DNA of 64,000 nt from Pectinatus brassicae (lineage in GTDB: Bacteria; Bacillota; Negativicutes; Selenomonadales; Selenomonadaceae). Numbering within the stretch: position 1 is the stretch's first letter; every line of letters starts with the position of its first letter. Under the pieces are notes generated by a model that was not told where the DNA came from, made no database searches, and saw nothing but the letters and a program-made list of their open reading frames with translations. The stretch is from NCBI RefSeq assembly GCF_014201835.1, contig NZ_JACHFH010000005.1:1-64000 (forward strand). Direction: 5' to 3'. Shown in pieces: positions 21,073 to 56,407 of the stretch. A program made the position numbers and the translations under genes.

Positions 21073-21099
21073 AAGGTCACTCCTCTCTTTTGTTTTTTT

Positions 21100-21212
21100 T
21101 TACCTGCGAGGTTAGCTGTCGGATTAGGGACAGAAGAAGAAACCGGCCCTTGCAAAAAACAACATTCACCCCTAGAATGGTTCCCCCGCTCCTGAGTTGG
21201 ATTCGGTTTATA
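21100..21212 (-). promoter_or_regulatory. c-di-AMP riboswitch (ydaO-yuaA class)
   Basis: On the minus strand the leader shows the class's conserved blocks in order: CCGAATCC (near 21199-21208), GGAGCGGGGGAACCA, GGGGTGAAT, and the 3' block CGACAGCTAACCTCGCAGG (near 21103-21121). This class binds c-di-AMP and turns off genes for cell-wall hydrolases and ion transport. The position about 30 bases before an NlpC/P60 gene matches its known regulon. Confidence 0.92.
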
Positions 21213-21364
21213 ATTTACTCATAAGCTATATTTTACTCGCAAAAGAGAAAAAAAGCAAGAAAAATCGATAAATAAATTCATTAGTCTGATAATTCCAATT
21301 TATATCAAGGCTGAATACTAATATAAAAATGTTTATATAATTTTTATTTTTAATAATACTTTGT

Positions 21365-39353: not shown

Positions 39354-39455
39354 AGCAGAGTAAGTGATTGCGCGTTAAGTGCCAGATGGACGGGGAGTTG
39401 ACATCTGGACGAAAAACTAAATGTTTGCGGTACAATCATTGCATCCCGCTGCTGC
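39354..39455 (+). promoter_or_regulatory. Tetrahydrofolate (THF) riboswitch
   Basis: The leader matches the THF class: GCAGAGTAAGTGATTGCGCG and TTAAGTG at the 5' side, a variable hairpin (CCAGATG...CATCTGG near 39382-39415), GCGGTACAATCATTGCATCC at the 3' side, and closing pairing of GCAG with CTGC. This class sits before folT and folE genes and lowers expression when reduced folates are plentiful. The gene downstream is folT-like, which fits. Confidence 0.93.
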
Positions 39456-42341: not shown

Positions 42342-42694
42342 TGGTGGAGACGAGGAGAATCGAACTCCTGTCCGAAAACATTGCTGCACAAGTTTCTCCG
42401 AGCGCATTTTGTGTTTTAATTTTAGTTAATAAAGCTACACAAACAAACCCTTGTTAACCTATCTCGATAAAATTCCTTTATAATTTCCGAGAATTAATTA
42501 TAAAGTATCCCGCTATTGTCCTCTTTTTGCTTCATGCGGGAAAAGAAACAAAAGAGGTTAGCATTAAGCTGCTAAAGCGTAATTTTCGTTAGCTTTTATA
42601 TTTATAAAAGTTAGTTTCACCTTACTGACGGGTTGATGACCCCCCGGCTCGCTTCTCATGCATCAGCTGCCCCCGTCGAAACCATTACGTCCCC
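42342..42694 (-). ncRNA. ssrA: tmRNA (ssrA)
   Basis: On the minus strand the RNA begins GGGGACGTAATGG and ends CGTCTCCACCA; the first 7 bases pair with the 3' acceptor arm. TTTCGACGGGGG near the 5' end and GAGTTCGATTCTCC near the 3' end give the tRNA-like T-arm. The tag reading frame at 42564-42593 encodes ANENYALAA then stop. tmRNA frees stalled ribosomes and tags the product for ClpXP or FtsH. Length is about 353 nt. smpB is not in this window. Confidence 0.97.
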
Positions 42695-43766: not shown

Positions 43767-43795
43767 GGACTATATCTAAATTTTAGATATAGTCC
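43767..43795 (+). terminator. Hairpin after dhaL
   Basis: A perfect 14-bp stem GGACTATATCTAAA/TTTAGATATAGTCC immediately after the dhaL stop; the T tail is poor. Confidence 0.55.
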
Positions 43796-43836: not shown

Positions 43837-43865
43837 TTGATAAATTATTATCATTATGTTATACT
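43837..43865 (+). promoter_or_regulatory. Promoter of the unassigned structured RNA
   Basis: TTGATA (43837-43842), 17-base spacer, TATACT (43860-43865). No protein gene follows on this strand for more than 500 bases. Confidence 0.7.
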
Positions 43866-43871
43866 AAAGGT

Positions 43872-44412
43872 AGAAAAGATGGACCAATTGATTTGATGAT
43901 TGGTGTTATCTTTTCGGTCCTAAGAAACAGAAGAAATATTGATCAATATTAAGAAATGTTTTTGTGGACGAAGGGGAGTGACAAATTATAATAAAAAGTA
44001 TAATTTTGTTGTCTGGTGATAATTTTTGCTAAAGTGTACAGGCTATGAAGTTGCCAAAATGCTTGCTTCGGAGAATGAAAATAGACACAATGGTGTAAAA
44101 GTTGGTCATGAGACAGAGTTCTACAGTATAATGCGCATTAGATTTGTTAATATGGATGATTGCTCCAATGCTATATAAATTATCCATAGTAAGAATAACG
44201 AAGATAACGCGTCGTTACTAATAGCCGGCTATGTATTATAAAGTGTATATTTATTTCGCGGATAGATATATACAAAGAACAATGGCCTAAGAAAGAATGA
44301 AGGGCTAGAGAGAATTGAGCTTCAAAAACAAAAAAAGAATAAAGAGGTATGAATGTTGGAATCTAGGTAAGGGCAGCTTGTTCGATAAATAATATCAGCA
44401 AGCTGCTTTTTA
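43872..44412 (+). ncRNA. Candidate large structured non-coding RNA, about 540 nt, class unknown
   Basis: The stretch has its own sigma-A promoter (43837-43865) and an intrinsic terminator (GCAGCTTG 44373-44380 with CAAGCTGC 44399-44406, then T run), and no credible protein gene. It contains many strong helices. The opening one is GAAAAGAT/ATCTTTTC with inner ACCAAT/ATTGGT (43873-43915). Others are a 16-bp palindrome at 43935-43950, ACAAATTATA/TATAATTTTGT (43981-44009), TAACGA/TCGTTA (44196-44217) and TGAAG/CTTCA (44298-44324). It is not RNase P RNA, tmRNA or SRP RNA. The size is in the range of large ornate bacterial RNAs (OLE, ROOL, GOLLD), but I cannot assign it to one. Confidence 0.6.
44373..44412 (+). 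terminator. Terminator of the structured RNA
   Basis: GCAGCTTG (44373-44380) pairs with CAAGCTGC (44399-44406), followed by TTTTTA. Confidence 0.75.
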
Positions 44413-44431
44413 ATGTCCAAAAATTTTATAT

Positions 44432-44473
44432 AACAAAAATGGACCTAACCATATGGTTAGGTCCATTTTTGTT
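44432..44473. terminator. mdh terminator
   Basis: A perfect 19-bp stem, AACAAAAATGGACCTAACC with its complement, loop ATAT, T tails on both strands. Confidence 0.92.
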
Positions 44474-44480
44474 ATAAAGA

Positions 44481-56011: not shown

Positions 56012-56177
56012 AAATACACCGACTTTCTAAAATTATATGTAATGATTAAAAAATATAAAATATTTATATCTAATATAATCTTTTTTAAAATCTGATAATA
56101 CCAGATAGTATAAATATATTATTAATTATAATTTAGTATAGACTATTTCAGCAAATTCGTAAATATATATCTTTTTC

Positions 56178-56206
56178 TTGCAAGATAATACATCATGTGT
56201 TAAAAT
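56178..56206 (+). promoter_or_regulatory. SRP RNA promoter
   Basis: TTGCAA (56178-56183), 17-base spacer, TAAAAT (56201-56206), a few bases before the RNA start. Confidence 0.65.
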
Positions 56207-56213
56207 AGTTAAG

Positions 56214-56370
56214 CAAAAGCAGTTTCCCAGGTGAGACTGCGGCGCTTGGGTCTCACGCAATGAAGACTCATGAACCCCGTCAGATCCGGAAGGAAGCAGC
56301 GGTAAGTGATCACCTTTATGTGCCGTGAGGGTGCCTGAGCGTCGTAGTCTGACTTGAGAAGCTGTTTTTT
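56214..56370 (+). ncRNA. ffs: Signal recognition particle RNA
   Basis: The universal SRP apical domain is present: GAACCCCGTCAGATCCGGAA, then GGAAGCAGCGGTAAG. The 5' AGCAGTTTC pairs with the 3' GAAGCTGTT to close the rod, followed by seven T. At about 150 nt it is intermediate between the E. coli 4.5S form and the roughly 270-nt Bacillus form; I see no separate Alu-type 5' domain. Position just before dnaX is the common Firmicute arrangement. Confidence 0.93.
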
Positions 56371-56407
56371 TAGTTCGCAAAATTATGTAGTAAAAAGGTG
56401 GTTTATT

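Follow-up and report, generated by a model that had tools for sequence, protein, structure and literature searches.

The intergenic region between dhaL and mdh in the 64,000-nucleotide stretch of Pectinatus brassicae DNA analysed here (the window) carries an independent transcription unit on the plus strand (43837-44411), whose product almost certainly belongs to a real and previously uncatalogued RNA family. Judged from its sequence and those of its homologues, this is probably a new family of trans-acting, homo-oligomerising large RNAs with a ribosome-loaded mini-ORF at the 3' end. The features of the unit in the window are collected in Table 1.

Table 1. Features of the RNA gene and its predicted transcript in the window.
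Feature	Position	Strand	Description
Sigma-70-type promoter	43837-43865	+	TTGATA-N17-TATACT, extended -10 TG
Predicted transcript (RNA), about 540 nt	43872-44411	+	Promoter, terminator, fold z -5.5, homologues
5' domain hairpin	43873-43915	+	AGAAAAGAT...ATCTTTTC; fold, covariation analysis
Long palindrome	43935-43950	+	AATATTGATCAATATT; kept in 3/4 full-length RNAs of the genus
Body motif and hairpin	43970-44013	+	GAAGGGGAGTGAC; GAAAGGATGTG-N5-TTATTGAAGAT in other genera
Long-range helix	44020-44029 with 44095-44104; 44034-44037 with 44085-44088	+	Covariation in the genus
Palindromic hairpin	44129-44140	+	TAATGCGCATTA; CGTTATCGATAACG in other genera
Hairpin P_a	44197-44216	+	AACGA...TCGTT; ACGCGT reaches into the loop
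Hairpin P_b	44221-44232	+	ATAG-CCGG-CTAT, self-complementary loop
Hairpin P_c	44243-44273	+	Covarying stem; self-complementary loop core CGCG 44257-44260
Conserved A-rich stretch	44330-44347	+	Ends in Shine-Dalgarno-like AAAGAGG 44341-44347
Mini-ORF (MLESR)	44353-44370	+	ATG TTG GAA TCT AGG TAA; after AAAGAGG 44341-44347
Intrinsic terminator	44371-44411	+	GGGCAGCTTG...CAAGCTGC-TTTTT; helix 21 of the covariation structure

An earlier note on this DNA had proposed a large structured RNA flanked by a promoter and a terminator of its own, in a region with no credible gene, and each of these points held up. The promoter spacer is exactly 17 nt in every full-length member examined (homologue consensus TTGCAATnnTCTGA...TATAAT), and the promoters of most full-length members contain TTGCAAT-nn-TCTGA. 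The TCTGA, which lies between TTGCAAT and the -10 element, is a conserved part of the spacer in most genera and may mark the site of a regulator. At the other end, the terminator was missed by a simple terminator scanner because of its long loop. The RNA has an MFE of -137 kcal/mol compared with -108 +/- 5 kcal/mol for dinucleotide shuffles, while the z of the minus strand is only -2.9; furthermore, GU far exceeds AC in the helices of the homologues (323 vs 84), which identifies the plus strand as the RNA. The longest ORF in the interval encodes 50 aa, and the presence of 50- and 52-aa ORFs in the window would fit an unannotated small protein gene or a pseudogene. However, a Pfam search of the interval's ORFs gave no match, no protein match to the interval was found, the longest ORFs of the homologues lie in differing frames and places with no frame in common, and the covariation described below is of the RNA type, which leaves this explanation a negligible probability.

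The upstream neighbour of the unit is a dhaL-like gene with a DAK2 domain, after which comes a hairpin (43767-43795), and downstream mdh lies convergently on the opposite strand. Immediately 3' of the RNA is a 48-nt perfect inverted repeat (44429-44476; TATAACAAAAATGGACC...GGTCCATTTTTGTTATA), which is probably the mdh terminator, usable from both sides. The RNA gene sits between dhaL and mdh in the window's genus; in genomes G003 and G001 mdh is not its downstream neighbour, and the RNA unit is therefore independent of its neighbours. Most other genera have it between a divergent gene that we take to be yqeB-like (MKHLIIVRGGGELASG...; for example in L110, L127, L128 and L106) and a convergent radical-SAM gene, presumably of the TatD-linked type and followed by a pyridoxal-kinase-like gene, and at locus L113 it is flanked by what we assume to be selD/yedF-like genes; these neighbours hint at a possible link to selenium metabolism. 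Since structure, Shine-Dalgarno sequence, short ORF and terminator follow one another in the order of an attenuator, the unit could also be read as a long regulatory leader, in which a 500-nt structured 5' region, a leader peptide and a terminator attenuate a downstream gene. However, the next gene is convergent (mdh in the window, the radical-SAM gene in nearly all other genera), so that there is nothing downstream for the RNA to regulate, and the flanking genes vary among genera while the RNA unit is retained. Because the downstream gene is convergent almost everywhere, we consider it very unlikely that the RNA serves as a leader or attenuator; action in trans is the most likely mode.

Within the window's genus, BLASTN detected two diverged relatives, the conserved position next to dhaL led to a third in G004, an RNA of about 770 nt that carries large inserts, and model R1, which represents the 3' part of the RNA, gave a fourth in G001, truncated by the contig end. 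Homologues are thus present in four further species of the genus, and these relatives are only about 70% alike in sequence, with stems that covary. R1 also reached other genera, and model R3, built from 14 sequences, matched 48 of 189 Selenomonadaceae genomes in 13 of 30 genera, with one copy per genome except for one draft genome with two R3 matches. A candidate genus-level member, G021 (L132), was rejected on reading its sequence and, as this match is false, 12 genera are confirmed. The other weak R1/R3 matches (L054, L056, L057, L058, L060-L062, L064-L068, L070 and L071) were discarded along with it, being either without the family motifs or inside genes. Model R2, which represents the 5' core, is too genus-specific for other genera, where it gave nothing above chance and its best matches fell on the body motif. 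Outside the Selenomonadaceae, R3 had no match in a 300-genome sample of the class. Likewise, a query with the body motif (AAAGGATGTG-N5-TTATTGAAGAT, 21 fixed bases) had 20 exact matches among the 84,980 species of a collection, every one in a record of Selenomonas, Mitsuokella or related Selenomonadaceae. Viral contigs gave none, and plasmid and phage records held no match to the RNA. In the collections searched, the family is confined to the Selenomonadaceae, and its cultured carriers include Selenomonas ruminantium, Mitsuokella multacida and Mitsuokella jalaludinii.

All 4227 covariance models of Rfam 15 were run over the window, and none matched within the RNA interval above threshold. At E 10, the window RNA and the G+C-rich homologue L055 had no match, and the other homologous loci scanned had none at gathering level; a search at a loose threshold gave chance matches only, mostly on the inverted repeat at 44429-44476, which causes the miRNA-type ones. 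Elsewhere in the window, Rfam located a THF riboswitch (39354-39453, plus strand), a c-di-AMP riboswitch (21086-21218, minus strand), the large SRP RNA (56176-56382, plus strand) and tmRNA (42342-42694, minus strand). Although it resembles tmRNA as a structured RNA bearing a short reading frame, the tmRNA model does not match it, the window has a normal tmRNA gene elsewhere, and the peptide of its mini-ORF, unlike a tag peptide, is not conserved. Literature searches found no description of the family. Two possibilities had been raised at the outset, membership of OLE, ROOL or GOLLD and a new class, and it is the second that agrees with these results.

The first of these possibilities nevertheless deserves weighing. 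OLE is about 600 nt long and dimeric, and its symmetric kissing loop, L9.3, alternates among the palindromes GGCC, GAUC and AGCU; ROOL and GOLLD are large ornate RNAs that form homo-oligomers through kissing loops (PMC12286853). The new family has palindrome-switching loops, a trait of large homo-oligomeric RNAs, and is thereby similar to OLE (RF01071), another large conserved bacterial RNA, although the dimer here is predicted only; its predicted symmetric self-association is also shared with ROOL and GOLLD. Size and complexity are alike as well, and many carriers dwell in the rumen, as do ROOL carriers, all of which could suit a diverged member of one of these classes. However, RF01071 does not match the RNA and the hosts of OLE differ, and neither an Rfam match nor shared motifs connect the RNA with ROOL or GOLLD. 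These two are frequent in phages or prophages, whereas the new RNA is a single-copy chromosomal gene that is absent from the viral contigs and from the phage and plasmid records. To our knowledge, OLE has no 3' mini-ORF, and altogether we see only a slight chance that the RNA is a diverged member of these classes. The smtA motif ('Soda Lake RNA') is also a large structured RNA restricted to one bacterial group, but, going by the text of its description, it has been reported only in Thioalkalivibrio (PMC11109978).

Members of the family are about 460-780 nt in length, and the full-length ones examined measure 455-771 nt. They consist, in this order, of a 5' domain closed by AAAGAGGAGA/CTCTCTTC, the GAAAGGATGTG motif with a variable hairpin, a long-range helix, the hairpin CGTTATCGATAACG, site A, P_a, P_b and P_c, the tail GACAAAnGAATAAnGAGG, the mini-ORF and the terminator. 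The body motif, the P_a/P_b/P_c module, the tail, the mini-ORF and the terminator have the same order in the window and in 37 homologues. The 5' domain hairpin of the window is likely to be the equivalent of helix 1 (AAAGAGGAGA/CTCTCTTC) of other genera, and its long-range helix (44020-44104) corresponds to helix 10 (CTGAC..GTGC / GCAC..GTCAG). The long-range helix is the clearest single item of covariation, with 5/5 pairs changed on both sides and 98% paired, and within the genus its 10 bp covary next to an invariant GTGT/ACAC. Likewise, the P_a stem switches from AATGA/TCATT to AACGA/TCGTT, and the P_c stem covaries within the genus (GTGTATAT/ATATATAC, GTGCGTGT/ATATGCAC and GTATGTAT/ATATGTAC). 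Between P_c and the tail, the window has about 55 extra purine-rich nt (44277-44331) that its relatives lack. Across 23 RNAs, 87% of cells were paired, and 54 pairs were changed on both sides compared with 36 +/- 3.3 in shuffles and 29-36 with slid partners. The covariation score of 0.298 was three times that of the slid controls (0.08-0.10), a control that partly favours the structure, which was predicted from the same 23-RNA alignment. Homologues in 12 genera with covarying helices thereby bear out the large structured RNA.

We scanned the same 23 RNAs (alignment A8) for all palindromes of at least 6 bases and found five peaks only, over a background of one palindrome per 58 nt. The P_c loop is palindromic in all 23 (CUCGAG, CUUAAG, UCGCGA) and the P_b loop in 19 (CAGCUG, UAGCUA and extensions); genus g3 has just GGCC there. 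Site A, which lies upstream of these two consecutive hairpin loops, is palindromic in 22/23 and has ten different palindromes, among them GUGUACAC, GUGCAC, CGCGCGCG, GUGCGCAC, GUACGUAC, UGCACGUGCA and GGCGCC. The remaining peaks are column 486 (16/23) and hairpin 16 (10/23). Near column 486, where others have CCCGGG, L092, L084 and L082 carry a long palindrome, TGTATTGCAATACA, a possible further symmetric contact. The window's genus has ATAG-CCGG-CUAU, ATAG-UCGA-CUAU, UAAUGCGCAUUA and AAUAUUGAUCAAUAUU; the window's own P_c loop is a weaker case, with CGCG plus a U-G only, and the P_b loop of G003 (CUGG) needs wobble pairs. The features agree in twelve members inspected once these regularities were already known, which added the palindromes TTCGATCGAA and TGATGCATCA and included a new genus, g30, with UUCGAUCGAA in the P_b loop, UGAUGCAUCA at site A and CGCG in P_c. 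No RNA examined has a second copy of its P_c palindrome in the same molecule, and intramolecular pairing therefore does not explain this palindrome; for P_b, a second in-molecule copy occurs in just 2/38 RNAs.

Palindrome switching has been used to argue for homo-oligomer contacts at L9.3 of OLE and L21a of GOLLD, where the contacts were seen by cryo-EM (PMC12286853). Sequence that changes with its symmetry kept would do so because two copies of the same site pair, and this pattern suggests that the RNA very probably self-associates through its palindromic sites. Self-complementarity alone is no proof of RNA-RNA contact, and with several sites per molecule the palindromes of such a new trans-acting family might instead dock a symmetric (dimeric) protein or a partner RNA. 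A protein that reads sequence, however, would not allow ten variants of site A with the symmetry kept; two of the palindromic sites lie in hairpin loops, and in OLE and GOLLD, sites that behave in this way are proven to make contacts between RNAs (PMC12286853). We therefore regard docking of a protein or partner as improbable.

One feature absent from the earlier note is a mini-ORF of 4-5 codons with a Shine-Dalgarno-like sequence (44341-44370), which in the window is overlapped by an ATG at 44349 that encodes MNVGI*. The arrangement of a Shine-Dalgarno sequence, an ATG or TTG, 3-7 codons and a stop abutting the terminator was recognised by eye in 37/38 RNAs and by an automatic test in 36/38, the terminator of L078 not being located by the latter. 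Shuffled linkers gave an expectation of 5.4/38, although these shuffles ignore the terminator A-tracts, which favour TAA beside the stem. Most members of the window's genus, and also L101, start with TTG and the others with ATG; the last bases of the stop enter or touch the terminator stem. From start to stop the frame measures 12, 15, 18, 21 or 24 nt and has changed in length by threes in about five lineages, whereas the Shine-Dalgarno-to-start spacing (5-14 nt) does not vary by threes. Stops exchange among TAA, TAG and TGA, starts are replaced only by other starts, and the peptides vary freely (MVINK, MSITT, MNYC, MVYTV, MYSMIQNV, and MTIKR* in g30). We also considered the GTG of GAAAGGATGTG as the start of another mini-ORF but rejected it, as the reading frame is broken in L094, L101 and L089.

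This pattern of change points to selection for being translated and not for a peptide product, and in our view ribosomes are likely to bind or translate the mini-ORF. If the 3' tail were a terminator module only, with an untranslated mini-ORF whose purines and ATG are kept, for example, for protein binding, then the unconserved peptides, the wide Shine-Dalgarno-to-start spacing and the one member without a stop ahead of the terminator (L089) would be readily accommodated. Such a tail would not, however, account for the excess of mini-ORFs over the expected number (37/38 vs about 5), for length changes in threes, for starts and stops that swap like for like, or for the mini-ORF seen again in the 12 later-read members, and we consider it unlikely. 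Mini-ORFs in the esp, ler and axe-txe leaders likewise consist of a Shine-Dalgarno sequence and 2-6 codons with no fixed peptide, and their occupancy by ribosomes protects the transcript (PMC8708949). They are cis-acting parts of the leaders of mRNAs, whereas the present mini-ORF stands at the 3' end of a structured RNA that has no downstream gene.

The mechanism that we favour, on the model of OLE/GOLLD assembly and of transcripts protected by mini-ORFs, is a ribosome-protected oligomeric RNA. The RNA would act in trans, and two or more copies would join through the symmetric kissing loops P_b and P_c and the palindromic site A, as in OLE and GOLLD. A 30S subunit or ribosome would load on the purine-rich tail, read 3-7 codons whose sequence is not fixed, and terminate against the 3' hairpin; it would thereby protect the end of the RNA against nucleases, anchor the RNA assembly to ribosomes, or both. 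More tentatively, the family might be a self-assembling RNA class held on ribosomes by an arbitrary-sequence 3' mini-ORF and coupling or linking them; if so, an RNA oligomer would sit on ribosomes and might, for example, sense the state of translation or act as a hibernation-type factor. Few classes of large ornate RNA are known from bacteria, and their functions are mostly open. The new family would add one that has cultured carriers, whose sequences argue very strongly for self-association through several sites, and whose built-in mini-ORF makes the putative link to ribosomes directly testable.
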